Positions 10,494 to 57,671 of a stretch of 64,000 bases of DNA are shown here, piece after piece. The stretch is from contig NC_052472.1 of assembly GCF_009730915.1 (NCBI RefSeq), positions 496,001-560,000 on the forward strand, in the 5' to 3' direction. The translations under genes and the position numbers were made by a program. The notes under the pieces are model-generated. The model did not search any database. It saw only the letters and a list, made by a program, of their open reading frames with translations, and was not told the DNA's origin. The stretch's first letter is position 1; every line of letters starts with the position of its first letter. Origin of the DNA: Dioscorea cayenensis subsp. rotundata. Taxonomy: Eukaryota; Streptophyta; Magnoliopsida; Dioscoreales; Dioscoreaceae.

Positions 10494-12979
10494 CTAAGCA
10501 TCAGTCCAAGCAGCAAACAATGGCAAGTGAATCCAAGGACTAACAGTAACAGGACTTGCACCAATGAACATTGAAGAAGGCGGCGGCGGTGGTGGCGGCA
10601 GCGGCCTAGAATGAAGCATTGAGAGTTCACCTCCGGCCACTGTCACCGTCCCGGTCCCCTCAGGACTTCTTTCTCTCGATAACTCCACGTTACCAACATC
10701 TCCGGCATCCTCCATTGCTGCAGCAATTCCATGCAGAGATGCTGCTGATACTTGCTGAGGAGACTGATAGAGTGCCATCTTCCAATCAGACCCACCACTG
10801 CTCAACTCTTCATTGCTGCTGTTGTTAACTGCCGGCACATCGATAACAGCATCGGGCAAGGCGGTAATTCTTCTGGCAAGATCGGCGGTGAGCAATGTAC
10901 TACTTGCCATGATCTTCTCTACATCATATCTTGTAATGTCGAAGTTTGTCACTGCATTCACCCCTCTGAATTTGATTGCTGCAATGTCATATGCTTCAGC
11001 TGCTTCCTCTTGAGTGCCTGCGCATTCGATTTATGAAATTCTCTAATTGATTGCATTGTATGAATTTATATCTGAAAAATTTTCTGTGAGATTATATTAC
11101 TGAATGTTCCAAGATAAAGGTCTTTGTTTCCTGCAACTCTTCCAATTCTTGCTTGCCATCTTCCATGTTGATGATGTCTTGAAGAAAAAAAAAAAAAAAA
11201 ACAGAAATCAAAGACAATTTAATTTTACAATAGAGTTATTGTTTGAGTAGTGAATGTAGGCAAAGAAAATCAACCTTGTGACTCCTCGATAAATCGAAGC
11301 TCCGCGTGAAAATCCACTGCTTTTTCTGCAGAAACAAATGCCGTAAAAATGTCTGTCGAAATATATACAACAATCATGTTTGTCATTACTGAGAGTAAAC
11401 AATAAAAACAGATATTACCTTCTCAAATGTGCAACATACTCTTGCCTGCTCATGTTCTTCATTTCTTCAAGTTCTTCATGATAATTCTCCAGCTACATTG
11501 AAAAGCTCAAGATCTCAGCTCTCAAATCTCAACTATCAAATTGATCAGAGCTTGTATTTAAACCATACAGGGAAATTAATGTGAGTGGATGTTCCCCAGT
11601 ACTTCAATGCAGCCAAATCATATGCTCTTGCTGCCTTCTCCTCCATATCATACCCACCTAAATCAACACCAAAGAAATGCTCATCCCTATAATAAAAAAA
11701 TAACATATATATATAATAAATAGCAGAGAGAAACTTACCTAGATAAACTGAGCAGTAGAGTGTATCAAGACATACACCAATCAAACAACAAAACTAAATC
11801 AGTTAAAAAGAAAAGAAGAAACAAAAAGTGAACCAAGAGTGACAAAAAACCTTGTCTTCCTTTCCTAGTTTGGCCTTCTTTTTTGCAGCTGTTATCCCAA
11901 AGATGAGCTTCATATCTTCCAGTCCATCTGTGCCTGGTTTTCAAGCAATGTTACAATGCAATATAAAAAGAAAAACAGTACAAAAAAGCATATCATAAAT
12001 TAGTAATAACACTAATAATAATAACAACCTTGTGACACCTCTATACTGAGATGTTCTCTGGCCAAAGGTATCAATGGATTTCCTATGAACTGGTTGCTTA
12101 TGTCCCCCTTTTCCAGTTCCTCTCTTTTTGGTTGAATCTAAAGCAATGCACTCAGTTGTAGTAGAGAGTTGATGATGATGCTGATGATGATGATGATGTG
12201 GAGCTGTGACACAGCTACTAGACTGAGAGCCAGGACTCATGGACAAGTTCAAAGACTGCAAATCACCATAGTGTCTTGCCACCCAGTTCTTCAAGTTTGG
12301 CATGCCTTCATCCACCATTGATACTTCCTCCAATGGCTGCTGCTGCTGTTGTTGTTGTTGCTGGTGGTGGTTCTGATACATGTCCTGGTTTGGAAGTCCA
12401 GAGCAGATAGGTTCTGGTAATGGCTGGAAATAGGAAGGATGGTGAAGGAGGTCAAGGGGGTGGTTAACTCTAGGGTTGCTCTGATGTTCAGGGTTTTGAT
12501 GGTAGTACATGCTGCTGTCTAAGCTTAATGCCACAGTTTCCCCATCATTGTTGCCATACTGATGGGTCCCTATGTTTGGACCACCAGCACCACCTCCTAA
12601 GAAATCTTCTAGTTTTGGTGATGGAGTTGGCACAATTCCTTCATCACATTCCACCAAATTCATCAACAGTTTTGCAACAAAGAGAAAAACAAGTAGTAGA
12701 AGAAGAAGAAGTAGACAGACCTTCCATGATGCAAAGAGAACCATCAGACTTGAGAGGCATGATAGAGAGTTGTTGAGAGTAGAAGCCACCATGAATGTCT
12801 GGTTGAGCTCCAAAAGGTAAAAAGAAGCTGCATTGAGCTTGGTGTTCATGGTTTGCTGCTTCAGTAGACAAGTCCATGTTCAGTTGAGGAGACAAAGAGA
12901 AACCCAACCAGTTGTTATTGTTGTTGTTGTTGTTGCTGCTGCTACTACTGTTACTACTGTTACTGTTCATAGATTTCAT
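10494..12979 (-). CDS. ANT: AINTEGUMENTA-type AP2 transcription factor (two AP2 repeats)
   Basis: Nine coding exons (minus strand): 12721-12979, 12029-12638, 11851-11933, 11739-11747, 11569-11657, 11419-11492, 11275-11325, 11101-11177 and 10494-11017. They join in phase into 591 residues. N-terminal motifs are WLGFSLSP (residue 24 on), [28 protein letters not shown] and [16 protein letters not shown]2 repeat 1 (about 283-349) runs from [14 protein letters not shown] to [11 protein letters not shown]; the linker and second repeat (about 386-445) include [19 protein letters not shown] and [20 protein letters not shown]. The C-terminus PLFAAWTDA matches ANT rather than other AIL/PLETHORA proteins. 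Family role: nuclear factor that keeps organ-primordium cells proliferating and sets organ size. Odd points are an 82-bp first intron and polyasparagine, polyglutamine and polyhistidine tracts. ANT assignment is strong; each splice site was inferred by eye. Confidence 0.93.
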
Positions 12980-13400
12980 CTTCTTCTTCTTCTTCTTCTA
13001 CTTCTTCTCAGTGAAGCTGGTTGCACAATCATTGTGTCTCCTCCATTAGGAACAAGAAGAAGCTCCAGAAGAGAGAACAAAACTGCTCCCTTTAAACTAA
13101 GCAAAGAGAATGACTGCAATCAGCTCCACAACCCCCACACACCACCACTACTACCACCACCACATATATGGGGATCTGTGTTCCTCCTACATATGCAAGT
13201 AACCAACCAAGAGAGAGTGCTTTGCTTTGCAAGTATGTTGAGAATATGATAGACATGAGAAAAAAATTAGTGTGAGAGAGAGAGAGATATAGATTGAGAA
13301 GGAAGACAATTGTCCCACCAGTCACTTCAACACAGTACAATATCACTGTACCATCCTGCACTGCATAACTCAAAGGATCTATTTAAATCTCTTATTCATT
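12980..13400 (-). promoter_or_regulatory. Probable ANT leader and core promoter
   Basis: Reading on the minus strand, an AATAGATCC/TTTAAATA-like TATA candidate lies at about 13378-13390, followed by a CT-rich leader with a TC microsatellite (13271-13289) and a run of TTC-like triplets just upstream of the ATG at 12979. Assignment rests on position and composition only. Confidence 0.35.
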
Positions 13401-16400
13401 TCACAACTTGTGCCCATATATCTGCCATTCTGCATTCAAATTCAACACCTTAAAGTAAAGAGAGAGAAAAACAGAGACAGAGACACAGCATAACTCATAC
13501 AAAAGATAACATTGATTTTCCATTCTGATATATATATATATATAAAGAAATCAGAAATGCTTGATGTTAATAAAATCTAAAGTGAGTTCAGTTCATGCAT
13601 ATTTTGCATGCATGGTCATCACAAGACAGAATTTCTAGTCTTCATGATTTGGTTGGTGTTATGAGGGCCCTATATAAAACTAGATATAAATATTATATCT
13701 TTTGATTATTGTAATGATGAAAGTTGGGGGATCCCACCAACAACATACCACAAGAACACTTTAGAAAGGAATGATTCTAAAACAAAACACTTTCACTCTT
13801 ACCAACCAAACTCTTTTAACACTTATTTTGCCATCTTTTTTTTTCTTTTCTGAGATCCAAACTGCTGTTCCCTCATTCTAAACCAGAGTTTAGTTCAATG
13901 TGATTTGCTCAAAAAGACAAACAAATCATGCTTTTTTTTTGTAATGTGTGTAATAACTAATAGAGCATTAATTTTTAACATGGTCAAACATTGCATCATT
14001 CTCTCTTCTGAATAAAGATAACTCTTCACTGAGAAATCAATCAAGCATTCCCCTTCACTTTTTCTTCTTTTCAACTCTTGTCAATCTTTGCCAATTATTT
14101 GTTTGACATCCATTAACTATTTAATAATTCATTTTGATATTTTCCTTCTTCAAAGTGAGAAAGTAAACATCCCAAAGATTTATGAATGTTTGTTCACATG
14201 TTGTTGTGTGTACTGTCATCTGATGAATTTTCCCATTTTACCCTTGCAAAAAGGGCATGTCTTCTACAGTTCTACTTATTACATGTTCTCTCTCTCTCTC
14301 TGTGTCTGTGTCTAAAAATAAATAACTGTGACAGTGAGGGGCACCTGGTCAGAATAATGAACTGAAAGATGGATTCAAATGTAAGCATGGACCATTGTTT
14401 ATGCCCCATGTTGTAAAAAAAAAAAAGTAATAAGTGCAAATTTTTAAACTAGATTATGACTTTCCAAACATACTTATTCAGTTATTAATGATCAATAATC
14501 CATAACTTAGTCCATAAACTCTGCACTTCAAATTTCATACTCAAAGTTTATGTAACCAAAGCTCAAGTTTTATATATATATATATATATATAAATTAGAG
14601 CTCTCTCTCTCTCTCTCTTTCTATATATATATATAAATAATATATATATATATAGAAAGGGTTAGGTTTTAGGAGGGGAAAAGGGGGACCTTAGTTTGGA
14701 AGTATGCATGGGAGTGTACTCTAGAGAAAATTTACTAGACAAGATAGAGTTGCCAGTTGGCATTAGTCCCTTCCAATTTCCATGTGAATTTGATGCAGCT
14801 TGTCTCATGTTATATAATATATATATATAATGGGGATGATTTTAATGAGAGTTATATATTTGATTTTTTTAAAATTTATTATGTAAATATTAAAATATAA
14901 ATATAAAAAATAATGTTGACTTTGGAGAGTGAAGTCATTTTAAATGTGTGGAAGTATGATTCTGTAATTATTTACGGTTGATTTTACTCTTGATAGCATT
15001 TGGTTTGGTACTTTTGTAACTTTATTGGTATTAGAAATTAAATATTCAATTGGGAATTTGGGACAGGTTTAATTAATCGCCGCATATCTGTTAGTAAAAC
15101 TCAAATGTATGTATATATTATAAAAAAAAAATTATATAAAATTATAAATCCGTCCATTTTGTGGGTGAGTATTAGCTTGAGAAAATTAGAACCAAAAACT
15201 AAAATTGTTAATTAATTAAGTTAAATAAAGAGAGTGTGCCTGTGCTTGTGCTAATTAAGCGGAACATATATTTATTAATTTATTTTTTAATAAAATAGAC
15301 AAATCACATGCACACGTCACTTGAAAATTAATTGCACAATTCATATGTACTCACTCAAAAAATACAAAGATTTAATTGTAAACTCACTATCTTAGAAATA
15401 AAAATTATATATATATATATATTTACAGTGGCTTAAATTCACTAAATCGAAAGTCTGTTTTAAATATTTAATTCTTCATTATGATAAAATAATATATATT
15501 AAAAATAAAACAGTAAGAAACTATTATACACCATCAAGATCATAGGTGAATAATAACTCAAACAATTTTTTTTTCTTTATAAAAAAAAACAACCTACAAT
15601 AGAAAACAAATTGAAATCCAGGATAAAAACTTAAAAACATCTTCAATTTAAGGCATTCAAATAAAATAAAAGAAAAAAGGTAAATAGAATAGGTACCAGA
15701 ATAGTTTTGGTCAGTGTCACAAAACAACGAGAAACCCACAAGTCCAAACAAGTGTGACTTGACAATTCAAGAGGGGGGCCTATTTGTTTGTTGTTTTCTC
15801 TGCCACTATACTTTATATATATATAAATATAAAGTAAATACATATATAAACCTACAATAAGAAAATTCAATCACACATCTACAGAGCAGTAACTAACTTC
15901 TCTCCCAAATAAAGGTTTCACAGTAGAGTGGTAACTTGGTTTAATAAACCTCTTGTTCATGAATTAAGTCAATAGTGTTTGAGAGAGTTCAATTCATTGA
16001 TATGTTTCACAAGAAAAAGTTGTGTCCTATGTATATATCCTACAACAGTAATGAAGTATTCAATGCAGTCAAATGAGAAGCCCATTCTATGCTTTTCCAT
16101 ACTGCCATACTTTTGTATACTTAATAAGAGTGAAATGAAACTTGCATGGCACTTTCTTGTCTAAGTATAGATAGAAGTATTAGGATGGAAAGAGTAAAGA
16201 AGAAAGGAAAGAATAGGGATGGAAAGGAAAAGCTAAGTTGATGCAAAGGGAATGGGCAGTGGTACACAAAAGAAAGCAAAGAAGAAGAAACTTAAAATAA
16301 ATGAGGAAGGGGAGTTGTTGTCTTAGCAATGGGAAACACAAAATCCAAAGAAAATCCAAGCAAGATCCCTTACAAGAGGTCAGGGAGAGCTCCAAAGGAG

Positions 16401-18200: not shown

Positions 18201-18201
18201 T

Positions 18202-18334: not shown

Positions 18335-21300
18335 TTATGGAACTGGAGTTTTGCAGCAGATGTTGAGGATATCTTCCAGAGGTGCGTGATCGCCAGTACC
18401 TTCATCTTTCCTAGCATATAACAGCTGCTTCCCTTTAAACACAAACATCCCACCCTGAAATGTAATAGTATATCACGAACTAGAACTAGTCAAGATGTTA
18501 GTTATAAAAAGTCTATTGAATACAAGAGCAGCAGCACATACTTGCTGTAGTACACTGCTTTTATCATCTGGAGTGGCAGCAATTGTATAGTTCTTTAATG
18601 CTTTCTTGATAGATTCGAATCTTGAAAATACTTTCACCTATTGAATGCAAGTTATTTATTAGAGATAATGCAGCAGTGTCATCTTTCTGCAGTACACTTT
18701 TCTTTCTTATGGTTATATTAGGGGGAAAATATCAAGCAGAAAACTCACACTGGCTGGATTGAAGAATGTGCGGCCCAAACCATAATATAGGCCTAGGACA
18801 TCATAAGCCTGAAATAAGTTAAATTGTAAGGACTTCCTGGAATCGGTAAGCTAAGAATATTAACAGGGTGAAAGATCCATTACCTTGTGATTTGGATCTG
18901 CATAAAGGCAATCCAATGGAAATGGAAGCTGCCAATTCCAAATGCAAGACAAGTTCAGCAACACACAAAAGTAGAATAGGAAAATGTTACTAAAAATGAA
19001 AGATGACAAATGATAATATAGTGTATGCCACATCAAGCACAGGATAAGTGACTTTTCTACACAAATTATCAACTAATCAGGTTACAAAGTGAAAAATGTG
19101 AAAATTAAACTGAATGCCCTGGATCAAAAGATAGGCAAAATTATTTCTTGAAAACAAGATTCAGGGCACATCAACAATGTTTGATTTGAAGCAAAATGAA
19201 TTGTTGAAAGTCTGGGTTTTCTTTATTTTTTTTAGTAGAGATTATCTTCAACTTCCTGTCTAGCATCACCTATTTTGCACAATTCAGTAATAAATATTAA
19301 CTAAATCTAAACAAGGCAATATATCTAACTGGTATTTCCAGCTATGCAAGCACTCAACTATGTGAAAACTTAAGCAGGACTAGTTATAAAAGTCTACACA
19401 AAATTATCTGTTTTTTTACCAAAAACCCATGGAAATGTCTGTTACTACAGCTTCTTTATATGTGGAGGAAATTGCAAGAACAGCATATCTGAAAGAGTTC
19501 AATACAAATCATGCCGGTACTTGAGAAAGCTCCACAGAAATACAGAAGATCTCAGATACTTTGATGTTATTGAGCCCTTTTATACAAAGTATTGAATGAT
19601 TCATTCAAGGCACAAATAATGTCATGCTTTAAGTTATTAAAACAACGATAAACGTTTATTTCTGAAGAAGAAAAAGATTAAGTTAGTCACACCGCATTAA
19701 CGATTAGACAATATAAACTTATGTTTGTGTTACCATCTTTTAGGAGTTTTATCTCATCACAATGAATGAAACAAAGAAAAAAAATCCTCATTCCTGTGAA
19801 TAGATTACAAATACCTATTAAACCATTTCTACAAAAGTTCTACAACTTACAAAAGGAGAAAGTCAATAAAACCAAACTGGTCTGATCAAAGGATTATCTG
19901 AAAAACTTCTGTAAATACATACCAGATGCTAATGTAGCAACTTGAAGAAAATAGGGAAACATACCTGTTCAGCAAGAATATGAGCTTTATCAAGGGTCCC
20001 AACACCAACAGCAATTAGTTTAACGCCAGATGAATCAAAGGTTGGATTTGCTTCTTTCAAGACAGAAGCAAGCTCCCAGCTTAAAGAATATGCACAGACG
20101 AAAGTAAGAATTACCACTGCATGATTGGTGAATCCTAGATCATTGGTTATCCTTACCAAAACTGAACTTAAGTTTAGGGAATGAATTCTTACCAGCAGAA
20201 ACATCCAAAATGCCTCAAAAGTGCAACAACAGCCACTCCCTACAAAAGAAAAAAAAAAAAGCTTTCTTGATTGCCTTCCAAAAATCATCGAACTTGTGCA
20301 CTTTTTATTTTTATTTTTTAAACTTACAAGACCATGTGCACATCACTTGACATCTATTTTAATGTGAACAAGTGAAATCATGGCCTAAGATTTTGTGTGA
20401 GGGTTTGCTCCTTGGCTGGCGCCGCCACTACCTTTTTTGCAGGGTTTTCTTTTTCTTCTACAAAGACTACAAGCTCATACAAGACGCCATCTTTCGACAA
20501 ATCTAGCTTGTTTTCTACTTGACACTGGAGCTACTGCCAATATGTTAATCTGATTTCATCTTTCTTTCGAAAAATCTGATCTTGAAACCTGACTCCTTGG
20601 TGTTCAAACAACCACCACCAGGAAAATCACCGCCATTGGAACCCACCACGCGTCTTCACATGCCTCACGTGCTTTCAGTCCTTTCCAACACTTCCATCTA
20701 CCATGTGGACTCACCCTAATTTGGCCTTGGTGATCATCTTTTGTTTTTATCTTCCATTTCAAACAGTATTCATGGATATATCAAAGTTCTATAAGCTTAT
20801 TTAAATTGATTTCAATGGCTCAAATTATCTATTATACACTGATGAAATGTGTCGCTTCCTCAGGGAAGAAGGTTGTGGCATTTTTTTATAGGTGAAGCCA
20901 TTAAACCATTAAAAAAGATGAATTCTATAACTGGTTTGAGGATTGGCATTGCAAAAATAATTATAACATTGCTTTGCAGCACCATTCATCCTCAAATCAA
21001 AAGTCAATTTGGACAGGTTTTGTATTAGCAAAGAAGGTCTAGGATTTTTTGGCTTAGAGGTATTGTAATAAAGACTGAGCACTAGGATATAAATTATTTT
21101 GTGATCTTGCTCATCTTAAACAACATCCTGGTCAATTTGTTCGTGATATTTTATTCCAAATACAGTTCATCTGGGACCAAATATCCTTGATTGAGCCATC
21201 TTGGAAGTGTAAAGATGCCAAAATTATACTAAACTCAAGGAGATATGCAAGTCTAATAGCAATGTATGACTCTTATAGATGACTTTGGTCAATTCATAAT

Positions 21301-24300
21301 TCATTACTTCATAGAGTTTTCACCATCTCTTGATGTTACTATCTCATAATTTCGGTCTAAAAAGAATAGACTTGCTACTTTTAAATCCCAAGGTTCTGCT
21401 CATGCTTCAGATAATCTAGCTGCTAGAGTCTCATCATCATCGACTAGAAATGGCAAAACCTGAGCTGATTCGTGGTTTCCGACCCAATCTACCCCGAATG
21501 GGGCGGTGTTTTCTATTGGAGAGCGGGGCATGGGGCAGTGCAGGATGGGCCAGTTTTGGTTTTAGCTTGCTCCACCCCACCCTGCCCTGATAAGCACTTA
21601 TTTATATTTATATGCCATTATATATATATATATATATATCATTTTAGGTTTTCTTAATTTGCAAATTAAAATATCCACTCAATTAAAACTATTGTATGTT
21701 TAGATTATACTTTTGTATTTTAATGGTTTAGCTTAAAAAATTCAATACTAAAAAAAAGGCATATGTTGTAATTTTAATTTATTAATAAATATCATATATT
21801 ATAGGGGATTGACAAAAAAAAATTCTTAATTTCTTCCCAATTTTAGTTGGTTGTTTGTACCTTTACATTCATAATTATACAATGTAAAAAATAATAATAA
21901 TGGCGGGACGGACGGACGGGCGGGCGGGCGGGGGGTGGGGCGGGCGAGGGATCGGGGAATGGTTCAAGCATGGCAGTGGTGGTAGAAACCTGCCCCACTC
22001 CCGCCCCGCCCCATTGCCATCCCTATCATCGACTGTTTCTACTTCATCTTCCACTGCTTCAAAGAAGAAAGTTTGCAGGTATTGCAAATAGCCTGGTCCT
22101 CTCATCTCTTAATGCTATTATTTGCTGTAAAAACATGTTGCAGAGTTAGGCCATCAAACTTCAAAGAATTCCTATCAAGTGCCAATCACTACTACTAGTG
22201 TCCCCACTACCACTAAGGGATCAACTACTTGCCCTTCCTCACCTTCTTTAATTATTTCTATGGGTGACTTGGAAAATCTTGTCAAACAATTGTTTGAGAA
22301 AACGAGTTCATCCTCTGTTCTTTCTATTACTACAAGTAACCCTATCTCTTGGTATTATGAGCCTGGTTGTTGCAATTACATGACTCTTAACTACAATGTA
22401 TGTCACCAAAAATAAAACTTGTCTTGTTCCCAATCAGTCAGATTGGTAACATATGTAGCTCTAAGTTGAACTTACATGATATTTTCATGTTCCAAAATTA
22501 TTTTTGAATCTTGTCTTTATTGGTGTATTAACTTGATTGGATCTCAAAGATACTTTTTCCAATCATAGTTCTTGCATGCAGGATTCTCAATTGGGAGATA
22601 TTCTTAGGTCCAACAGTACATCATAACACCTGTTTGAACTAATCAACTTGAAGATTTCTCAAAAGAACCTAACTAATTTTGTTACTTTTGCATCTTTTGA
22701 ACTTTGGCATTCTCATTTTAGTTCATGTCTCTTCTTCCAGAGCCAAGTCATTAGTTTCAAGTGGGAAATTAGGATCAGCCACAAAAGAAAATAATGATTG
22801 CACTTCTTCTAACCCTGCTAAACATCATAGTCTTCCTTTTAATTTAAGGGATGTTTCTTTAGCTTCCTTTGGTTTGTGCATTTTGATGTTTTGGGTCATC
22901 ACCTCATGAGACTATAGGAGGTTCTAAGCATTTTGTTACTTTGTTAATGTTTATTCTAATTATACTTGGATCTATCTCATGAAAACTCAATCCACAATTC
23001 CTAAAATTGTATTAATTTTCTCATACTACAGAAGTTCTAAGCATGGACAATGTCATGGAATATAGAGAAACTGATCTAGTTTATTTCTTTCACTTTAGGG
23101 CACTGTGATTCAGCAATCTGGCCCATGAACTTCTAAGCAAAATGGATGTGCAAAACACAAACACAAGCATATCCTAAATATTGCTCATGCTTTGCTCATA
23201 TCTTCAAAATACCTTGAACATTTCTGGGGAAAAGTTGCTCTCACAACCATCTACAATATCAGCTGCATTCCTACACATACCATTGATAATATTTCTCCTT
23301 ATGAACAACTCTATACTTCCTTAATTATAAATTGTTACGTGTTCTCACTTGTATATGCTTTATTCAATTTCAACCTCACGAGCCCAACAAACTTGAGCCT
23401 ATAACCCGTTTATGTTGTTTCTTAAGTTATGGAATTAAGCATAAAGGTTGTTGATGTTGGGATCTTATTTCAAAACAACTTCAAGTCTCACATTATATCA
23501 TCTTTTGGAAGCACAAAATGCTGTTTTTTTTAATCTGATTTTCAAATTTCAAACTTTAGTGTTTTGTATTTTACTAATCCCTCAATTGATTTGTTTCCCA
23601 ATAAAACTTTAGATTCCCTACCTTATAAAAATTTATCTACTAGTTCTTCTAATGATCCTACTACAGCCACACCCACAGAAGTTGTCTCATTTAATGATCT
23701 CACAGATAGTGTTCCACTTGCCTAAGAGTTAGAGCTCTCCTAATATGCTCCTGCACCTTAAAGCATTTAACATAGTAAGTCAACCGCCTTCCCACCTTCA
23801 TGATTGCCATGGTTATTCTGATATCATTTCTTTACATAAACCTAATACTTTTCAAAAAGTAAAGTCTGATCCTCTTTGGCACCAATCAATTGCAGAAGAA
23901 CTATAGGCTTTAGAAAGAACACATACTTGGGATCTAGTTGATTTGTCCCTTGGAAAGTCAATTGTTGGTACAAATGGATTTACAAAGCCAATACCAAATC
24001 TAATAATTCTATTAAACATAATAAGGCTTGGCTAGTTGCCATGGACTTCACCCAAGAGTATGACATTGATTATGAAAAAACTTTGGTTCTTGTTGCCCGC
24101 ATTACCTCTTCGCAACTTACTGGTAGTAGCCACTATTAGACATTAGCAACTCTTTCAAATAGATGCCAAGAATGTCTTTCTCAATGAAAATATTGAAGAG
24201 ATGTACATGCAACCTCCACCTAGTTATGACCATCCTTCTTAATAAGGTATGCCTTCTTCGTTGTGCCTTGTATGGTCTTAAACAAGCACCACATCCTTGG

Positions 24301-27300
24301 TTGACAAAGTCCAGTTTTATTGCAACTCAGTTTGGCTTTAGCTAAAATTCTTATTATCATCCTCTCTTCATTTATCACTCTCAATGCAGATCTATTTTAT
24401 TGTTGCTTTATGTTGATGACATAATTATAACTAAAAGTGATCTTTAAGACATCATTAAAATTAAGTGCTATCTTAACCAACAATTCGAGATGAAAGATGA
24501 AAGATCTTGGTCATCTTGCTTATTTCCTTGAACTAGAGGTTACCTCCGATGCTTCTAACTATGTCCTTTCCTAAGCAAAATATACGACAAATTTTCTATC
24601 TCAAGCAGGCCTTATAGATGTTAAAGTTGCTTCAAACTCCTCTTGAGGCAAAATCAGAAATTCACACCATTAGGTGGCAAACCTTTGAATAATCCCACTC
24701 TTTATCAACAGTTAGTTGGAAGCCTTACCTACCTCATAGTGACTCACTATAACATAGCTTATGCTATACAAGTAGTAAGTCAATTTATGGTTGCTTCTCA
24801 GACTACTCATTACGCAGCTATACTTCACATTATTCGCTATTTATTATGTCAAGGGAACCATGTTTTATAGTCTTAATTACTCTTCTCATTCATCACTGGA
24901 ACTACCACATATTTTGATGCTAACTAGGCTAGTGACCCCATTGATTAAAAAATCACTACTGGTTACTAATTCTTTTTGGGATACTCCCTTATCTAATGAA
25001 GGAGGAAACAAATTGTTGTTGCCTAATCCAACACTCAGGCCAAATATCAAGCTCTTGGTGACACCACCTCGGAGCTTGTGTGATTGTGATGGCTATTTCA
25101 AACAATGTTATCAAAAGCACAACAAGCGCTCACCTAGGTGCCCAGGCGAAGCTACAACGCCTTATAACCCTCTAGGCGAGGCATCATAAAAAAAGAGTTA
25201 CCTAGGTGAGCACCTTGACCCAAGTGCAAGGTAAAAAAAGCAAGAAAAACATTACCTTTATTAGTTCTCTTTTTTTTTAATAAATTTTAAATGTTTTTCA
25301 AGAGATTATATTACAGACCAATAAATATACGTTTATAAAGGACTGATAAATAATTATACTTGGAAAGTGTAATAATTAAGGGAGAGGTTTTCTATTTTTT
25401 AAAAACAAAATTAAAGCAATAAGGGCTATAAAAAGAGACTTTTTAAGAAAGAATAACGTAATAAATAATTATACTTGTTGGGTGTAACAATCAAGAAGAG
25501 AAAAATTTTCTATTTTTTCAAAACAAAATTAAAGCAATAAGAGGAATATAGAGAGACTTTTTAGGAAAGAATAGCATTACATGCTAAGCAAAATAAAGAA
25601 AAAAAAAAGAAACTTCAAAAGAAAACCAAAGGAAAACTTGAGAAATTTCAAGTGAAAGATAGGAAGTTTAATTGGGAAAGATTCTAAATGAAGTTTTGCA
25701 TGCTAAACTTGAACGTTTAGATTGTCTTTTGTGGTTTTATGTTTATATATTTATTTTGGGTCGTCAATAGTTTAGTAGATGATTATTATATTAATTTAAG
25801 TTCAACCTTATGCAATTTCAATATTATTTTCTATATTCTTTCTATTTTTTATTTTTAACTACATCTTCATGTCACTCGGGGGAAGCGCCTAAGGTGGGGC
25901 CTAGCGCCTTAAGCGATTTACATTCTCATCGCCTTAAGGGCACCTAGCGCTTTTAATTACGCTAACTTCAAGATCTTGGTGTTCCTCTTTCCCATTCAAT
26001 GACTCTCCTTTGCGACTATCACAACACTATTCAAATTGCATATAATAATATTTTTCATAAACAAACAAGGCAAATTAATATTGTTTGTCATTTTATTCGT
26101 CAACATTTTCTTCGTGACACTCTACATTTTGAATCAACTCCTTCCACTACATAGATTACATGTCTTTCACTGAGTCACATCCATCCAATCGCTTCCATGG
26201 TTTCTTATCTCCCATCTTGAGTTTGAGGGGGTGTTAAAATTAAAAGATCGCATGCAAATCGTGTGACATCTATTTAATGTGAACAAGTGAAATTGTGGCT
26301 TGAGTTTTTGTGTGAGGGTTTGCTTATTCTTAGTTAGCACTGTCGTTGCTTTCCTTGCAAGGCTTTCTTCTTCTTCTACAAGAATGACAAGCTTATCCAA
26401 GATGCCATCTTCTGCCAAATGTAACTTATATTCTTCTTACTTGCAGGCAGGAGGCAAGTAACATTTATGTATACTTTTCAACAACCTCCATCAAAGCTGA
26501 GTTAGGTTATCTAGTAGCCTCATGTAGATTTTTACATAGAATCAAGTAATATAAATGATACTTTTTTGAATCTAGAGATGGTATTCTGAACTACCATAAC
26601 CTTTGATGCCCTTGTCTTGGTTACACAAAATCAGTGATTTAATACATATTTGATAACCAGAACTCCAAGAGAAAGTAAAAATTACTAATATTATGTAGGC
26701 AATTAACCAGAACGAAAGAAAAAGGTAATTTCAAGAAAAATTGTGTCAGGCAAAATTTTACCTATCCTAATCGTGTGGTCATTTAGAATTTGTTTCAATC
26801 TTTTGAAGGATATGAGAATTGATTTATGGTAAGAGCAGGGTTTAATTTTTAAGCTTTTTGGATAATGGCAAAAACCATGTCATACAACATCAAATCCATC
26901 AATAAAAGCAATCCGGCTTTCAAAGCCAAAAAGTAACTGTGAAGGGAAAATAAAACCTTTCTTTTTCTCGGTGGCAAGACTAATAAAGTTGAACCATCTC
27001 ATGAGTTCAAAAACCTTCACCCATAATTAGCAATCAAACAAGAACGAAGTTGCTTGCTTGACCTTATTTGGTAACTTTAGTTCCACAATCAAGCACTAAT
27101 TTCCATGACCACTAAATGCATTACTTATGTTGGGAGTAAGTATTGTGATAAATGGGTTATTTACCTAAGTTAAACCCTACAAAATATAAATATAATATAA
27201 TGCAATGAAAATATAGATGAAACACAGATATAAGGTGGTTCGGCACTTCTTAACACAGAGAACTTCTTCATAGGTGACAGAACAAATGAAAATCTTAAAC

Positions 27301-28451
27301 TCACACACACACACACAATGCTAGCAAATGATGGGTGTTGCATCCAGGACATCGGAAAACTCCATGAGTATCTCTCCTTTCCCCCTTTTTCTTTCTTTTT
27401 TACTTGCTCTCCAACATCTAGTTTCAAAGTGTTGCACCTTCCGAGATCTAACGATTTGATCAACTCTCACATACATATGTGGGTAAGGGTTACGTCAATT
27501 ACGTAAACACAAAAAACCTTAACTCCTCATGTGATAACCAGTAATCGTCCTTCTTCACCCTTCATCTTCTTTACTTGACCTTACTTAACTTGGAAGTCTA
27601 ATTATTGTACCCTAAAAACGGAGACACCATGACACCTCATGCAAAGAGACAAAATCGATCTGAGGGCAATGATCTATGTGCCTTATGGCCATGCTTAGAA
27701 ATTCTAACCGTTTTACTTAATTTTCAGTTTATCTTGTGCTGATTGCATGCTTATAAGATTCATAACATCATTTTTCCAATCTTTCATCATTCAAAGTTTC
27801 CACTTAAACCTTAGCAACATCGAGGTAATTCAAAGATTTGTCTCCATGGTTGTTTGATTGCATAATTTCATCATCTACATATACCTTCCCTAAAGTTCCT
27901 GTTAATATTACAGAGATTACATCCATACCCCGCATTGCTTCAAAACAATAATATTTTAGTGATGAATTCACACAACTAGAATTCCACAGTGGAATGCAAT
28001 CGTCTACCACTAAACATGCCCATCTACAACGCTCAATTCAACATCCAAATCAATTAAAAAGCAGGCATATTTCAATTATTAAAACGCAATTAACAATCCA
28101 AACATTCAAAAACAAGAAACGATAGAAATTGAAGAAAAGAAAAAAGCCAATGAAATGCCAAACCTCGTTTTGATCCCATAAATCCCGGAAGAAGACCGGC
28201 TCATCGGTGGCGGCAGAGAGGATGCTAACATCACCAAGAGCATCCAAGACACTAGAATCAAACCCAGAAACCGAAGAAGCCATTGAGCGCTCCGTCAAAG
28301 ACCTCGTCCCGGAGATCGTTCTCACCGGCGCCTTTCGGGCAATGGATTGAGCGAAGGGCGAGCTCAAATTGACCGTAGAACGTGACGGAGAAGGGCAGAA
28401 GCTTGATCGAGGAGAGGAGAAGGCTAGGGTTTGGGGAGAGATGAGCGCCAT
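18335..28451 (-). CDS. AAED1: Plastid AAED1/PRXL2-type thioredoxin-fold protein
   Basis: Seven coding exons (minus strand): 28164-28451, 20193-20239, 19965-20079, 18884-18928, 18749-18808, 18542-18637 and 18335-18454. They join in phase into 256 residues. Residues 1 to about 60 are Ser/Arg/Pro-rich with few acidic residues, as expected of a chloroplast transit peptide. The mature part has LGDVSILSAATDEPVFFRDLW, then VVALLRHFGCFCCWELASV with the Cys cluster at the redox-active position, KLIAVGVGT, LPFPLDCLYADP, YYGLGRTFFNPAS and a C-terminal GGMFVFKGKQLLYARKDEGTGDH. This is the AhpC/TSA-like PRXL2 family (AAED1 in plants), presumed to act in plastid redox metabolism; the substrate is not known to me. 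Intron 1 spans 20240-28163 and carries a copia retrotransposon in the opposite orientation. Confidence 0.88.
20320..20530 (+). repeat. 5' LTR of the copia element
   Basis: It aligns with 26232-26446 along nearly its whole length, for example GACATCTATTTTAATGTGAA, GTGAGGGTTTGCT and TTCTTCTACAA in both. Divergence is substantial, so insertion was not recent. The left border is uncertain because the first bases do not show a clear TGT start. Confidence 0.75.
21446..22024. mobile_element. 579-bp MITE with 10-bp target duplication (Mutator/hAT-like), inserted in copia GAG
   Basis: The direct repeat ATCATCGACT flanks the element exactly (21436-21445 and 22025-22034). Its ends are inverted repeats: AGAAATGGCAA at the left, and TTGCCATCCCT at the right, whose reverse complement is AGGGATGGCAA. 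Both flanks are strikingly GC-rich (GGGGCGGTG near the left end, a GGGCGGGCGGGCGG run at 21918-21931 and CCGCCCCGCCCCATTGCC at the right), with an AT-rich middle. No coding capacity is seen. A duplication of 9-10 bp suggests Mutator-like and 8 bp would suggest hAT; I favour Mutator-like. Confidence 0.88.
25102..25960. mobile_element. ~860-bp non-autonomous element with inverted termini, inserted in copia RNase H
   Basis: Copia RNase H similarity stops at about 25101 (after WLFQ) and resumes at 25972 (QDLGV), so the interval is an insertion. The left end reads ATCAAAAGCACAAC, then CACCTAGGTGCCCAGGCGA. The reverse complement of the right end reads GTAATTAAAAGCGC, then TAGGTGCCCTTAAGGCGA. Both ends are therefore imperfect inverted repeats rich in AGGCG/CGCCT. 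The flanks GCTATTTCAA and GCTAACTTCAA may be a degraded target duplication. Inside are two related blocks of about 120 bp (25340-25450 and 25460-25580) containing TTTCTATTTTTT and AATTAAAGCAATAAG. No protein-coding frame. Confidence 0.7.
26232..26446 (+). repeat. 3' LTR of the copia element
   Basis: It begins TGTTAAAATT directly after the purine tract and matches 20320-20530. It ends near CTTACTTGCAGG, where similarity to the 5' copy is lost. Confidence 0.75.
26450..28163. other. Remainder of AAED1-like intron 1
   Basis: No exon-like frame. A (CA)8 run lies at 27301-27317. A segment at about 27185-27260 contains AAGGTGGTTCGGCACTTC, a phrase resembling termini of other plant LTR elements, so a second, fragmentary LTR relic is possible. 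Confidence 0.4.
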
Positions 28452-28640
28452 GGAACCCTAGTGAATTGGATTGAAAACGAAAACCTAATTCGAATTGAAT
28501 GTTTCTTCGCGGATGATGAAGGCTTGTGTGGCGGGAAACGAGGCCCGAAGCCCGAAGATGAACACGTGGAGTTTTATGGGCCTCATGGCTCCAATATGGA
28601 AATAGCTTAATGGGCCTTATTGGGCTCATTAACTTTTTAA
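28452..28640 (-). promoter_or_regulatory. Probable promoter of the AAED1-like gene with TGGGCY (site II) motifs
   Basis: Immediately upstream of the start codon are ATGGGCCTC (28577 on), ATGGGCCTT (28611 on) and TTGGGCTC (28620 on). TGGGCC/T elements (site II, bound by TCP-family factors) are common in promoters of housekeeping and organelle-protein genes. This fits a constitutively expressed plastid protein; function is inferred from motif and position only. Confidence 0.45.
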
Positions 28641-44595: not shown

Positions 44596-45069
44596 TTAAG
44601 CGATTATGGATGATCCAGCGATCGCTGATCCCGAGGCAAAGCCGGGACCGCCACAGACGGGGGATGAGAGCCGTTGGATCTGGCGGAAGATGAGGAAGCT
44701 GTTGATCTCGTTGAACCGGCGGCGCAGAGCGGCTAACTCGGCAATAAGCCGGTTACTATCATGGCGGTAGAGGAGGCAGTGATGGCTGATGGTGGCGAGC
44801 CGGCTCGCCAACTCCCGGTTCTCGGCGCGGAGCCGAGCTGACTGGACCCGGAGCCCTTCGAGATGGCGTTGCTTTCTCATACGAGAGCGACGAGCCGATT
44901 CCCGGTTGGAAACCATACGGCGGCGGCGGCGCTCTTCGACCGGGTCGGGCCCGTCCGAACCGGAGGAGTTGCGGGCCGGGTTATTGTTCGGATTCGGGTA
45001 GAGTGAGTCCCATGATGGGGATCCGAATCCGAAATCGGTCAGGGTTGGTTCGAGTTGGAAGGAGAGCAT
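44596..45069 (-). CDS. Group S basic leucine zipper transcription factor (bZIP6/7-like)
   Basis: Intronless, 157 residues. The basic region at about 46-70 has RMVSNRESARRSRMRKQRHL with the invariant N55-x7-R63 signature. The leucine zipper begins at L73 (exactly ten residues on) and continues with L80, L87 and further hydrophobic heptads to about 115 (LIAELAALRRRF). Small size, single exon and the SNRESARRSRMRKQRHLE signature place it in group S; linkage to GRF and PSK points to the bZIP6/bZIP7 pair. It should bind ACGT-core DNA, probably as a heterodimer. The coding region is far richer in G and C than its surroundings. The leader (45070-45170) contains no ATG, so the sucrose-control uORF of the S1 subgroup is absent. 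Confidence 0.9.
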   Translation of the reverse strand: MLSFQLEPTLTDFGFGSPSWDSLYPNPNNNPARNSSGSDGPDPVEERRRRRMVSNRESARRSRMRKQRHLEGLRVQSARLRAENRELASRLATISHHCLLYRHDSNRLIAELAALRRRFNEINSFLIFRQIQRLSSPVCGGPGFASGSAIAGSSIIA

Positions 45070-49198: not shown

Positions 49199-52100
49199 TT
49201 ACATATTCACTGGAGGATTCTCCTAAGCAATCAAGCAAGCACATATTTAATAACAAATAGTAGTGGAACATCTAATATTTGTGAAGTTTTATTAATGGGT
49301 TATACTTGAGGATATAGGAACGATCGACATTCGATAGAAAATATTATTCATTTGTCATATAGAAATAAACATCAGAATAATTTTGACTTCATCAGAAGAA
49401 AACACAAAACAGGCAAATATTCATTGAGAAGCAACATGTAAGCGAAAGCAAATGTACTGATTGAAAGATTTTTGTGGCTGAATTTTAAGGGTACACCATC
49501 AAACAAGAACATAGCAGCAAGTTGAAATAAGAAAGTCAAATCAAGCCCCAAAAGTGTGTACCTTAAACAAAAGATCATGTGCAATATAATCCCAGGGTAA
49601 TGCAATCGACATCAAACAGCATTTAAGTGGGATAAGGTCCACATCAGATTTTCTAGTGGAAGAGGCAGCAGCATAGGCTTGCTTTGCCAAAACAGAAGCA
49701 GCCTCTGCTGCTTTGTGGACAACAGTTCCCAAACCAATTCCCAGACCTTTCTTTGACAATTGAAGAGGTGAAGGAGGCCCAGATATCTGGTGGCTTTGAT
49801 CTGCAGCATGGACAAGCAATAATTCAGTACAGATTAGCAAGCATACCAAAGAATCCAAACTATTAAAAAAAGAAGGCCATGCTTGCACTGAATTTCGGAA
49901 AAACCTTTTTCACTTGTCTGGATCTTCTTTTTTTACTATAACAATGAGCGCTTATTCAATGGTGCTAAAAGCATCAAACTAACATAAACAGAGAATGGGA
50001 AGATAGCTCTTCGTTTTCTTTCCCATTGTTTCAAGCATCTATTTCATAATCAACAAGCACATAGAACTAGGTGTTATTTATTCCAATGAACAATATGACA
50101 TGTTGGCACTCGGGCCTTTCTTGTGCACTTGCAGTTCTTGAGATGGAAGTGCAAGGAAATTTAAACATGCAGCTTAAAGAACTCAACACCATCACCCAAT
50201 ATTCTCAACTCTTTGATAAAAATAAAAAATTAAAAATTAAAAATAAAGAATAACACTTTAAACAGATGAAAGTTGCATTTCTTCACCCAATCTAGTAGAT
50301 ACAAAAGAATAATCCAATCGCCGTAATCAAGCACAACTTTTCAAACTAGGTCATTTTGAATAACACTATCTTTACTCATCTGTACAATGTCAATACAGAA
50401 GAAAAGGACATCCAATGATATTCGCAACTCAAAACAAGTCAAGAATAATCCAGGACATGATCATGGATCTGGCATTCAAGAATTCATATAATATATTCAA
50501 TGAAGCGAAGAACAAAAGTTATATTTTATATAGCAAACAAATGAGACTAGAAGAAAGATATTGGCTTAGATGCTAAAATTAAGATATGATATCAAGTAGG
50601 TAGTTAACTAGCCTGCAATTCCAGATACAGCTACTTCAACCTCCCCCCGCCCTCCAGGGCCCCTCATGTAAATTCGGTCTGTTTTTGCTGGAGAATGGCC
50701 AATTGATAAAAAGCTCCCAAACCTAGACCTTCCAGCTGCAAAGTAAGGCAAATAAATAAAAGTTATACGAATCAGCAAGTAAAACCAGAAGTCTAATTGA
50801 TCATATGGATAAATGCTATATATATATATATATCAATTATCTAGACAAAATAATGTTTGCACATTGTTATGGAAAAATATCAACCCTCATAAATCATGAA
50901 TTATTGTTGAAGCATATATTTCTTTCCTATGGTAGGCATTCACAAAGATCTTCAAGAACTAGAGGTTTTTAGTTTAAGTGAGAAACAACCTCTTCACAAT
51001 GAGATTCTCAAAATTTAGCCATCCCAGACCACTTGCACAAGCATTGTATTAGATGAAAACCACACTTATTATTCAGGCCCGATTCAACCCAAAAGCTTAA
51101 ACTAATAAGATGAAAGACCCTAGTTTAAATATTGAAATCCATATTTACCAAATTAACCAAAGTGGGACTACTCTAATATCCATCTTGATACAAGCTAATT
51201 TATTTTAACTTGCATTGTTATAAAGGAACCAAATAAGCCAAGCTTTGATACCAAATTAAATAAAAACCAAACCTATTATTTGGGCCCGATTCAATCCAAA
51301 AGCTTGAGTTGTAGGATGAGAGGCCTAGAGTTATACAGTTAGATTCATATTTACCAAAAATTAACTCATGTCGGATATTAGTTACTCTAATAAACTGCAC
51401 AGTGGCAAACTACTACCATTCCAACAATACAATTCAACTTCTGAAATCAAATAAAGTAGAAGAGTTTAGGGTTTACACCTCTTATAAACAAGAAACACGC
51501 ATAAATCCAGCGATTACTTAGAAGTACAAAAATGGTGATGACTGATATTACAATAATACCAACTACCAAGACAAGTTTATTGCAAGATCAAATTGATGCC
51601 CAATGCAAGAATACAGCAAAAGCAAGCAATATAAATAGTGAACCCTAATCATGCAACACTACTAAGGGCAAAGGTCAGCTATGAGAAAGGAGCTTGAATT
51701 TGTGAAAGGACATTTAGAGAAGGATACGAACTTAACAAAGACAAGCACATGATACAATTAAAAAGAATGAAAGACATCTGATTACTAAGAATCATCAAAG
51801 GATGATAGTAGGCTAAAAGAAGAACATATAGCTTGCAGAACATGTGCTGCTCTCGAAGACAAACATTTCACATATCATGTGCTCCATTGATATCTGCATA
51901 ACCAAGGTCAAATCCAGGCTTTGCTTCCAATGAATAAAAGCACTTAATTTCCCTTCATGTAACCGTGAAGGATTTCGGACCTAAAATTTCCACATTTCAT
52001 GAAACATAAAAAACAAATTGACAATATATTTGATAGCAATTTAAAATTTTATAAGAAACATACTGGGAATCCAGACAAAATTATAATTTGGCTGAACAAA

Positions 52101-55100
52101 GACATAACAAAAATATGGATCTTTATTATGATTTAATTGAAGAGAATCTTATATGTATGCTCTTAAGTCTTGTATACAACACTAAGTCTGATTTCAGAAT
52201 ATAGAAACTTGAAAGTGAACAAATGTACACCTTCGTATGCTTCTCGGATCATTGGGTAGCTAACAAACCCAGAGAAAAGAGTGATCTGCACTATAATAAG
52301 GACAGAGTTAAGATAGTCTCACACAATCAATATAGTAATATTCACAACGTGTTAATAAAAATAATTGAAGTTATATGATTGAAAAGGATGTTGTTTATAT
52401 CTAATTCTAAGCATCTATACCCATGTCCTTCCATAGAAAACTTGAAAAGCAGGACCAACATTAACTTCTTCCAACCTAAAAGAAATTCTAGTACTTACTT
52501 GGCATCACAAAATAAAAATATTGCTCTAAAAATTTAATTCATCAACCGGATAAAGAGTTCCTACTTCCTGGGCTTTTTTATCTACAGAAGTGTATTCTGA
52601 TTTCTAATAGGATTAATACAAGTGTAAAGAAATTCTTTTTTTTCCATAAAAAGTAATGATTTTCAAAGTCAAAACCTTTGCCTTCTTGGCTTGTCTGTCA
52701 TTGTCAACTAAACCACTTTCAGCAGGCAATGCAGCTCCACCATGTGCATTGAGAAGCACACAGTAGCAGTGATCTGTTTCTGTCAGAACCTGAAAAATGT
52801 TGGAGACGACGTGTAAAACCAAAATAAGAAAAATACAGATGAGACTAGGAAAAGAAGATGGTTATGTGGTCTAACCAGAATGAACAGATTAAATTTACTA
52901 ATCTAAAGGAGATATTAATGAACTCAATAAGATGGCAGGGTGACTACAGAAGGCCATGGATTGAAACCGGCCAAGATTTATGAAAAGTTTCTGTCAACTA
53001 GAAGATATGCACAACCAAACTGCAAGTAGCAAGAAAGATTTGGAAAACTCCTAAAAGTTTGAGAAACTCTTAAGGATTCGGAAAAAAAGGCATCTGGCTG
53101 GTGCCTTCCCAAAACACAAGTACCAGACTTTTGGAATGTAAAACAGACCGAAATATCAAGCTATCAGTCTAAACATGAGGCCAGGAACCTAAACGAAAAG
53201 GAACACCAGCTACACTAGTAGTAAAATAAGTTATGATCAAACATCTTCAGAAAAGAAAATAATTTTTTCTTTTTTTTAACAAATCAACACTGCATTTATA
53301 AAAGATTATTTAGTTTTAACACAAGGAATGACAAGTTAAGATGCTAAATGCAGAAAAAGTTACAATCCAATCATCCTATATCAAGGAAAATGACATCATA
53401 CCACAGCATCAAATGTGTCATCAAAGTCATCAACAGCAAAACAAATATTTGGATAGGCAGGTAATGTTTCTACAGCCTGAAATAATGGAGAATTTGAAGT
53501 CAGAAGCAATAAAAACAGAAAAAACATGCCTGAGTGCTTGCTGCACACATTTTCATGTGTCTATGAGGCAAAAGGAAAATAAATAAATTAACATACCTTT
53601 TTGAAGTCTAACTGAAAATTTACACGACTAGGAGATGCATAGACAGTCTTTACAACCTGTTTGAATGATGATATTTCTTGATAAGAATCAAAATTGTTTT
53701 AGTTTATATTTAGCACAGATTGACGGTGTAAAGAAACTTGATGTGCAGGAGAGTAAAAGGGCAGAAAATTCTAGGATAGCATGCAGCATTTGACATAACA
53801 TATACTATCATTAGGAGTAGACTAGAAATAAATATGATCTCTGCCATCCTCATACCTTGTAAATGGGGGATATCTCTAAATTTTCCCCTTCCTGATGTTT
53901 GCGCAGATCCTGAATACTGTATAATACAGTTATAATAACCTCCATAAAATTCCAATAAAGGTTTAAAGAAAATCATCAAAAATGCATTCAATTACATAAA
54001 AATTACATAGAGAATAACATCCTTCAGAGTAGCAGATAAGATAATTCAATAATATACAGGCCTTTTGAACATCTAAAAACCAGCTCATGCAGGGAAAGAC
54101 TGATTTCTAACTTGATCCAAAACCAAATAGAACAAATTGCATAAGATAATAAGTTAAAATGACATTCTTAAGGGATGACACCAACATCAGGAATCTCAAG
54201 TCTAAAGTTTCTATCAATGAATGGCAATATAATCAAGCATATGAACCAACAAATTACCTGCAAATTGCAACTGTTACACTGAATGATGTATGAGCAATCA
54301 AATTCAAGAAGAAGGAGCGCCTCCAATCAACATCTGTAGGATTTTCACCAAAAACTTTTTCTAGCTGAAGAACAATAAAACCAAGACCCTTGTTATTAAT
54401 GACAGCTAACTTTTAGGAGAACAAACTCACTGAATTACTCATGATAGACAAATTTTTCTTTCATAGATTAAATTTTCAATCCATCAGCTCACCAATGCGC
54501 AAATCACACTTGCTCAATATTGCTTTCAATATTATACCAATAGCTGATTACACCTGCAATACTAACACACCTACTGATTCTTACTTGGCACTTATAAATA
54601 TAGCACGATATTCAAATGTGCTTTTTTAGTGCATTTAGCCTCTGTACAACACTAATCTCTAGTACCAAACAATTGTTTAAGGAATCAAGCTAATTCTATA
54701 GTCTGCAAAAACATGATTAAAAATCTATAAAATCTACAATCACATAATATGTCATGTGTATGATATCCAAGTGAAATATCAGTTATTAAGATTGATATTA
54801 GTTTCCAGTAGTTCATTAAAATTATTCAAACAAAAGCCTATATGTGTCTGGCTTGGATGGATTCCTATAGGTGACTAGTGGTAATTCCCAGAAATTCTAG
54901 AAATGGTCCTATGCTGTTATGCAGACATACGTATGTCTCAGGACTCATGGATTCCTGCTAAAACAAAGTTTAAAAGTATTGTCTAAATAAGAGGAAAACA
55001 AAACCAAGGGCTATGTGTTCCTAATAAAGCAAAAATTATATGCATAAACATTGTATACAAACAAAGCATGAGTTTAGATTGTACATAGAACAATTTCAAT

Positions 55101-55793
55101 CCTATAGATACAGTAATGCACTATTACAATCTAACGTTCACCAACTTGAAATTTTTCTCAAAACAAAACCCATTCATCATCTAAAAGGTACTGATTTTTT
55201 GCTCTCTTTGTGGCATTACTAAGAATTATAAATTCACCAAACAGCTAACACTGAACACATGATATGCCTATTAGATGAACAACAGGAATACCTCAGGAGC
55301 CCACCGCCGAACAAAGAATGGAGGAGCTCCTTCCATGCTATCATTGAATCCATACGCATCCATACTCTGCAAAAACAACAAATTCAGCAAAACTCAGATT
55401 ACAACACAAACCATTTCTTTTGAAAAAAAGAAAAGATAAGAAACGAACTTTACCATATTCTTAACAAAAAAGATCATATCATCTTCTTCCCGTCCCTTCG
55501 ACACTCGGCCCCGAACAAAGTACAAATCGAACACCCGATTCCAGAACCGGGAATCCATCTCCACATCCGACGTCTCCTCATCATCCCCTCTAGCTTCCAC
55601 CAAAGACCTCGAGTGCTTCCTCACCATACTCAACAATTCACATCTAAGAACATTCAACTCCATCCATAACTCGGCAATCACAGCACTAAAAACTACAATT
55701 AAGATGGAAAATCAACTGGAAAGCGGTGAGATACCTGGATGGGGAGTCATCGTCGGAGAAGCCGGACGAGATGGTGATCTCCTTGGCAGCCAT
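49199..55793 (-). CDS. KIAA0930 (DUF2045) family protein
   Basis: Twelve coding exons (minus strand): 55735-55793, 55454-55685, 55292-55366, 54258-54364, 53856-53916, 53597-53656, 53402-53476, 52676-52789, 52231-52285, 50613-50735, 49562-49800 and 49199-49222. They join in phase into 407 residues. Matches to the animal KIAA0930 pattern, from memory: FWNRVFDLYFVRG, EDDMIFFVKNM, VDWRRSFFLNLIAHTSFSVT, KTVYASPSRVNFQ, YPNICFAVDDFDDTFDAV, YMRGPGGRGEVEVAVS and the C-terminal LMSIALPWDYIAHDLLF followed by KENPPVNM. Cellular function is poorly known in any kingdom, so none is assigned. No signal peptide or membrane segment is seen. An out-of-frame ATG in weak context lies 11 bases upstream of the start. 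Intron 10 (49801-50612) appears to use a GC donor. The tiny last exon is supported by agreement with the family C-terminus. Confidence 0.85.
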
Positions 55794-55804
55794 CTCTCGA
55801 GCAT

Positions 55805-57128: not shown

Positions 57129-57136
57129 TATTTATA
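57129..57136 (+). promoter_or_regulatory. TATA box candidate of the PSK gene
   Basis: TATTTATA sits about 190 bp upstream of the PSK start codon, before a TTC-rich leader. No upstream ATG intervenes in the part of the leader between 57165 and 57327. Confidence 0.5.
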
Positions 57137-57327
57137 CTCTCCCCCTTACTCCCCATTCTTCACTCCTTTCTTCTTCTTCTTCTTCTTCTTCGTCTTTTGT
57201 CAAGGTACTCTATATTATTCCAAGGTTTAGAACCAAGCTACAAGTTTTGATAGGTATATATAGATATATATATATATATATATATCTGAAATATTAATAG
57301 AGAGAAAGAGGGAAAAGAGAAAGCAGC

Positions 57328-57671
57328 ATGAAGAAGCTCACCATTATTTTTGTGATAACTCTCATTCTCATGGTGGCAATAAACCATGCATCAACCAGGC
57401 CACTTCCACCACTCCCAAAGATAAACAAACAAGAGGTACTCTTTATTTTCTCTTTATATATATATATATATAGATAAATACATTTGTGTGTTTGATATAA
57501 AGTCTTAGTTTGTTTTTATTATTTCTGAAAATAAAGGTGGGAGATGAAGAAGGGTGTGATGGAGTTGGAGATGAAGAGTGTTTGATGAGAAGAACTCTCT
57601 CTGCTCACGTTGATTACATCTATACTCAAGGAAAAGGAAATAAGCATTGTGTGTATGAATTTGGGATGTGA
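57328..57671 (+). CDS. PSK: Phytosulfokine (PSK) precursor
   Basis: Two exons, 57328-57435 and 57537-57671, encode 80 residues. Residues 1 to about 22 form a signal peptide ([20 protein letters not shown]). The conserved block is [20 protein letters not shown], then VDYIYTQ, containing the mature pentapeptide YIYTQ at residues 63-67 with the Asp before it that is needed for tyrosine sulfation. Family role: the secreted precursor is tyrosine-sulfated in the Golgi and cleaved by subtilases; the sulfated pentapeptide binds leucine-rich-repeat receptor kinase PSKR and promotes cell expansion and proliferation. The single intron lies before the conserved Cys region, as in other PSK genes. Odd: 13 residues ([13 protein letters not shown]) follow YIYTQ, longer than the few residues usual in the family. 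Confidence 0.93.

Follow-up and report, generated by a model that had tools for sequence, protein, structure and literature searches.

In vertebrate genomic regulatory blocks, an old gene order is combined with conserved non-coding elements lying between the genes. In animals, such stable linkage between developmental regulators and conserved non-coding DNA is a familiar finding, whereas fewer cases have been documented in plants. Here, a window of 64,000 nucleotides from white yam (Dioscorea cayenensis subsp. rotundata; NC_052472.1, positions 496,001 to 560,000 of the forward strand, contig C2 below) was analysed, which carries four growth regulators: AINTEGUMENTA (ANT), a growth-regulating factor (GRF), a bZIP and a phytosulfokine (PSK) precursor. 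This neighbourhood is well supported as real and old and is present in two copies in yam, and the cause of its persistence is testable rather than settled. The yam block is like the vertebrate blocks in order and elements, while long-range action in yam would be hypothetical. Deeply conserved non-coding boxes that control a related AP2-class gene have also been described upstream of PLETHORA1/2 (PMC12545816). However, in the part of that paper available to us, the subject is PLT1/2, PLT3/7, BBM and PLT5 and not an ANT-GRF interval, and the yam segments are known from paralogues alone. No published description of an ANT-GRF-bZIP-PSK block was found in the open-access literature under the terms tried.

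On Arabidopsis chromosome 4, ANT (At4g37750), GRF2 (At4g37740), bZIP7 (At4g37730) and PSK6 (At4g37720) follow one another in yam-like order, and on chromosome 2 three of the four families are found in the same order (GRF1 At2g22840, bZIP6 At2g22850, PSK2 At2g22860). We take At4g37750 and At4g37740 to be ANT and GRF2; the published tables give AP2/EREBP and GRF. Both clusters had been named in the original prediction, and they fit the locus numbers in the accessible parts of the tables for PSK (PMC11534595), bZIP (PMC7796262) and GRF and AP2 genes (PMC3485569). The comparison concerns locus number and order, not orientation. Unlike the yam window, the Arabidopsis clusters have consecutive locus numbers with no interleaved genes by number, and PSK6 is listed with YIYTH (PMC11534595), whereas the yam PSK has DYIYTQ. 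Moreover, a group-S bZIP is found at one or two locus steps from four of the seven Arabidopsis PSK genes in the list (PSK1-bZIP58, PSK2-bZIP6, PSK4-bZIP5, PSK6-bZIP7; PMC11534595, PMC7796262), so the bZIP-PSK pair may predate the four-gene block.

In the yam window, ANT (-), GRF (+), bZIP (-) and PSK (+) are intact reading frames in that order over 10494-57671. The predicted order was thus confirmed by open gene models, with splice sites placed by reading the sequence by hand, and by Pfam domains. The ANT model includes a 9-nucleotide microexon (11747-11739), is 100% identical to the annotated ANT protein of the same subspecies, being the same model, and carries two AP2 stretches in Pfam, as expected for the euANT AP2 class. 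The Pfam matches were QLQ (E 1.8e-15) and WRC (E 5.8e-20) for GRF and PSK (E 9.1e-15) for the PSK precursor, in which YIYTQ is present. A predicted miR396-complementary 20-mer, GTTCAAGAAAGCATGTGGAA, starts at 40302 and is identical in the GRF of the second yam block described below; we take it to be a miR396-type site.

The linkage in other angiosperms was counted from the locus tags and contigs of the best 120 matches of each protein search, using hand-picked rows (83 bZIP, 84 GRF and 74 ANT) whose choice leans towards matches; Amborella and Nymphaea were not among the matches listed. The chance level was estimated by 1000 random draws assuming 12 chromosomes. ANT and GRF were on the same contig for 37 of 65 ANT records, in 28 of 40 species (chance mean 9.2, maximum 21). 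The corresponding counts were 11 of 31 GRF records and 9 of 18 species for GRF-bZIP (chance mean 3.7, maximum 12), and 12 of 30 ANT records and 11 of 19 species for ANT-bZIP (chance mean 4.0, maximum 10). Gene-number evidence is firmer than these counts. With locus tags stepping by 100 counted as one gene per step, 13 of 16 numerically tagged ANT-GRF pairs were at most 6 genes apart, namely in Canna (a monocot), Aquilegia, Stephania, Tetracentron (two pairs), Jatropha, Nyssa, Rubroshorea, Hibiscus sabdariffa, Pterospermum, Reevesia and Craigia (two pairs). All six tagged GRF-bZIP pairs were within 9 genes (two each in D. zingiberensis and Tetracentron, one each in the magnoliid Asimina and in Aquilegia), and all four tagged ANT-bZIP pairs within 18. 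The order ANT-GRF-bZIP can be read from the tags of Tetracentron (9729, 9732, 9735) and Aquilegia (55, 49, 40). Unnumbered ANT and GRF matches on one contig came from Acorus, Magnolia, Aristolochia, Tasmannia, Nelumbo and palms, which speaks for a common chromosome or scaffold, not for adjacency. PSK linkage outside yam refers to Arabidopsis only. Since yam is a monocot, the linkage it has in common with Arabidopsis spans the monocot-eudicot split. The linkage is old: the same neighbours recur, beyond chance, in unrelated angiosperms and in the second yam block described below. Two Hibiscus syriacus records are named after their neighbours, one GRF being called "ANT-like" and one bZIP "phytosulfokines 3-like".

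In poplar, where the comparison covers GRF and ANT, three of the four GRF1/2 genes (PMC11990005) lie 3 to 9 numbers from an ANT homologue (PMC6770981) in the parts of the tables available (Potri.002G115100/114800, 007G007100/007400 and 014G007200/008100). The fourth, Potri.014G012800, is on chromosome 14, about 47 numbers from the ANT of that chromosome (PMC11990005, PMC6770981). A section on the chromosome 14 sex-linked region of Populus euphratica, seen in part, mentions genes with GRF1 and ANT as best hits, possibly the same block (PMC9636151).

In genome searches, a GRF and a PSK separated by 15 kb were found on another contig of the same genome, C13. The region C13:400-500 kb holds ANT at about 473.1-475.0 kb (+), GRF at 460.3-457.2 kb (-), bZIP at 451.9-452.4 kb (+) and PSK at 443.4 kb (-). 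Read in reverse, this is the window block in gene order and relative orientation. This second four-gene block is a new finding of the present analysis. With the window bZIP as query, the C2 copy scored 337 bits, the C13 copy 153 and the next-best match 63. Among 21 yam WRC loci, fetched with 1.5 kb on either side, only those on C2 and C13 match the window GRF across most of the last exon, and in four other GRF loci (L005, L006, L009, L010) the match covers 39 to 94 of its residues. The C13 PSK match consists of the second exon only; in the C13 ANT, the exons of both AP2 domains can be read, as can the microexon. Among the matches listed, PSK and bZIP are close together in yam only in the two blocks; five further PSK matches and eight further bZIP matches (window-bZIP query) were considered as other pairs and rejected, as they were not together.

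In the GRF tree the two yam copies are sisters (Shimodaira-Hasegawa-like approximate likelihood ratio test, SH-aLRT, 99), as they are in the bZIP tree (support 99/97), and in both trees each copy has its own D. zingiberensis relative. This puts the duplication in the Dioscorea lineage, before D. zingiberensis split off. Between the yam copies, synonymous divergence (Ks) amounts to 1.05 in GRF exons 3+4 and to 1.13 in bZIP. In the ANT tree, C13 forms a long branch beside the window ANT with no strong support, which is weaker than the GRF and bZIP trees. On balance, it seems probable that a single duplication in the yam lineage copied the whole block and that all four genes were kept in both copies. 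The original prediction had assigned the window copies to the ANT, GRF1/2, bZIP6/7 and PSK2-type clades. Trees were made for ANT, GRF and bZIP, with outgroups from neither the remaining AIL clades nor the remaining GRF clades. In them, the ANT and GRF copies appear to fall with ANT and GRF1/2-named proteins, and the bZIP falls with block-linked bZIPs. The ANT trees (120 and 33 rows, midpoint-rooted, no AIL/PLT outgroup) group broadly by plant group, the GRF tree includes Populus GRF1/2d and GRF1-like rows, and in the bZIP tree, from which Arabidopsis bZIP6/7 were left out, the window bZIP groups with block-linked bZIPs while eight other yam bZIPs split off (support 94/97). On the D. zingiberensis side, one ANT (P0331, J5N97_028481) lies apart from both contigs that carry GRF and bZIP, and among the matches listed no ANT stands beside the GRFs of this species. 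This placement suggests a third ANT lineage, loss or annotation gaps.

The ANT-GRF interval is about 25.9 kb in the window and about 12.7-12.8 kb on C13, a two-fold difference. Comparison of the two intervals, which are yam paralogues within one genome, gave four collinear matches with E values below 1e-5 and 80-88% identity, each on the strand expected (E values 1e-11, 6e-10, 2e-9 and 4e-25; segments a to d in Table 1). The best control matches had E values of 2e-3 on the opposite strand and 4e-5 with the sequence reversed. No match at 1e-5 was obtained in the 67.9 kb of C13 that lie outside the block. Segments b to d form a cluster upstream of both genes. Its distance is about 16 kb to ANT and 9 kb to GRF in the window, against about 9 kb and 3.4 kb on C13. 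When 29280-29780, which holds this cluster and leaves out segment a, was searched against the 584-Mb assembly, skipping simple repeats and very common words, only two loci were found, on C2 and C13. Identity between the yam copies at four-fold sites is 83/151 in GRF exons 3+4 (55%) and 30/58 in bZIP (52%). Because the segments exceed these values, they appear to be under constraint, and they favour a putative cis-regulatory constraint on ANT-GRF. The simplest functional reading would be enhancers for one or both genes, and their common use by both is our inference.

Other origins of the segments were considered. Gaps of 1 and 4 nucleotides in segments b and d speak against a coding origin. The predicted fold of segment d was no better than that of shuffles (z-scores -1.24 and +0.48), and an Rfam scan of the window at the gathering threshold gave no match; the idea that segment d derives from an RNA was therefore dropped. 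A repeat or transposon as the source of the cluster was rejected, since the genome search, which skipped simple repeats and very common words, matched just the two paralogous places. A telobox/CTCT-type motif was likewise discarded, with one telobox core per cluster against 46 window-wide and the full telobox in neither. Directly upstream of the bZIP start codon, a further stretch is purine/pyrimidine-rich and by its position would be the bZIP 5' leader or core promoter. Marginal matches at 33353-33427, 43861-43899 and 48795-48871 were kept out of the main claim. The block comparison found no distal element of comparable strength for bZIP or PSK; their linkage may be passive.

Table 1. Genes and conserved segments of the white yam window (positions in the window; C13, contig with the second block).
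Feature	Position	Strand	Description
AINTEGUMENTA (ANT)	10494..12979	-	ATG 12979, stop 10494; nine exons; 591 amino acids
Segment a	16330..16388	.	85% to C13:471829-471888; about 3.4 kb upstream of ANT
AAED1-like gene	18338..28457 (limits approximate)	-	Between ANT and GRF
Segment b	29316..29364	.	88% to C13:464139-464189
Segment c	29466..29516	.	84% to C13:463928-463978
Segment d	29621..29752	.	80% over 132 columns to C13:463677-463802
Growth-regulating factor, GRF1/2-like	38915..41668	+	Four exons; 603 amino acids; QLQ and WRC
miR396-type target site (predicted)	40302..40321	+	Within WRC exon of GRF; same 20-mer in C13 copy
Group-S-type bZIP	44596..45069	-	One exon, intronless; 157 amino acids; Pfam bZIP
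Stretch directly upstream of bZIP start codon	45091..45181	-	80% to C13:451738-451827
DUF2045 (KIAA0930-like) gene	50620..55552 (minimum span)	-	Between bZIP and PSK
Phytosulfokine (PSK) precursor	57328..57671	+	Two exons; 80 amino acids; contains DYIYTQ

We lean, if not strongly, towards an ancient angiosperm neighbourhood whose order is kept by intermingled enhancers in the divergent ANT-GRF interval. ANT and GRF would be transcribed away from a common upstream interval, and the intermingled enhancers would lie in this interval, in some cases at about 16 kb from ANT in the window or 9 kb on C13. Breaks between ANT and GRF would then be selected against. For the downstream bZIP and PSK, the same domain may contribute to retention, or their short distance may suffice. 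A rival explanation is that the order decays slowly and was carried along in a large-scale duplication of the block, each gene having its own enhancers and the linkage no function. We regard such passive retention as a real possibility, though we doubt it. The interleaved genes differ between the two yam blocks while the order is unbroken, the ANT-GRF interval varies two-fold in length, and the genes are unlinked in rice, all of which would fit it, as would the fact that transcription-factor genes are often retained after duplication. It accounts less well for segment d: no other non-coding match of the block is as strong, and in the window it lies between ANT and GRF at least 9 kb from both start codons. 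The original prediction had offered shared long-range regulation and chance retention side by side; the conserved non-coding DNA of the ANT-GRF interval supports the former, and the latter stays as its rival.

Several observations weigh against enhancer-based retention. An element located between a pair of genes can act on just one of them. The cluster at 29.3-29.75 kb also lies upstream of the AAED1-like gene, about 0.9-1.3 kb from its start codon, and could be a relic of that gene's promoter, though C13:400-500 kb gave no match to the gene. As a neutral yardstick, the four-fold sites are uneven, with 37/51 identical in GRF exon 3 (Ks 0.48) and 46/100 in exon 4 (Ks 1.58). The branch of the C13 ANT is long, and its C-terminus, as read, is different and shorter; this copy (C13:473.1-475.0 kb, L036) is perhaps relaxed or new in function. 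GRF-bZIP contig sharing was below its chance maximum, so that this excess alone is not decisive. In 12 of the 40 species that the hand-picked rows represent by both ANT and GRF, the two share no contig, and three of the 16 tagged ANT-GRF pairs are 89, 118 and 895 numbers apart (Protea, and Liquidambar twice). For rice, we presume that LOC_Os03g07940 is ANT-like. LOC_Os03g12950 is labelled ANT (PMC10572191), and none of the 12 GRF loci given in the accessible part of a rice list (PMC11990005) is near either gene. The ANT-GRF link is thus absent in rice, unless another rice gene is the true ANT orthologue. Deep persistence, as originally predicted, has support in monocots and eudicots, and for GRF-bZIP also in a magnoliid; the unlinked genes that were to speak against it are found in part, in rice and in the 12 species just mentioned.

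Two further explanations were weighed. ANT-GRF-bZIP-PSK could be a plant genomic regulatory block, in which intermingled long-range elements of the divergent ANT-GRF interval would drive a growth programme and make the order resistant to breakage; in duplicated blocks, bystanders would then vary while regulators and elements stay. Conserved non-coding elements do occur in the common interval, in one genome, and we hold this stronger proposal only tentatively and think it rather unlikely. Under dosage balance or joint pathway selection, the four regulators would be kept in duplicate with their products acting in one growth programme. The presence of all four in both blocks, and of none of the four other genes looked for on C13:400-500 kb, agrees with this; however, it explains duplicate retention and not adjacency, and the C13 ANT is on a long branch, which makes it improbable.

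The other genes of the window were compared with C13:400-500 kb as six-frame pieces of at least 20 residues at E 1e-3. Apart from retroelement pieces, only the four regulators and the conserved segments of the interval had matches; the AAED1-like, DUF2045, F-box and BSD genes gave none, nor did a separate search with the F-box protein. The difference in neighbours would reflect either loss from C13 or gain in the window. As for the two interleaved genes of the original prediction, the DUF2045 (KIAA0930-like) gene was borne out (E 2.4e-30), and the AAED1-like gene is present with a weak identity. One piece of it matches Pfam AhpC-TSA_2 under the cut-off (E 0.059), and further reading frames scanned with Pfam gave no AhpC-TSA_2 match. 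It is the least certain gene identity, its name otherwise coming from our reading of the frames. Copia-like retroelement pieces, recognised by reading, lie inside its span at 22131-26151 and resemble pieces at C13:427.8-433.9 kb. An F-box gene with a weakly ubiquitin-like N-terminus flanks the block beyond ANT (5097-6473), and a BSD-domain gene flanks it beyond PSK (58300-64000).

The non-coding pieces kept in both yam copies suggest that regulation may help to hold the group together. The four short segments (49 to 132 bp) are defined targets for the question of regulatory gene-order retention in plants, and the block bears on organ-growth control in a staple crop.

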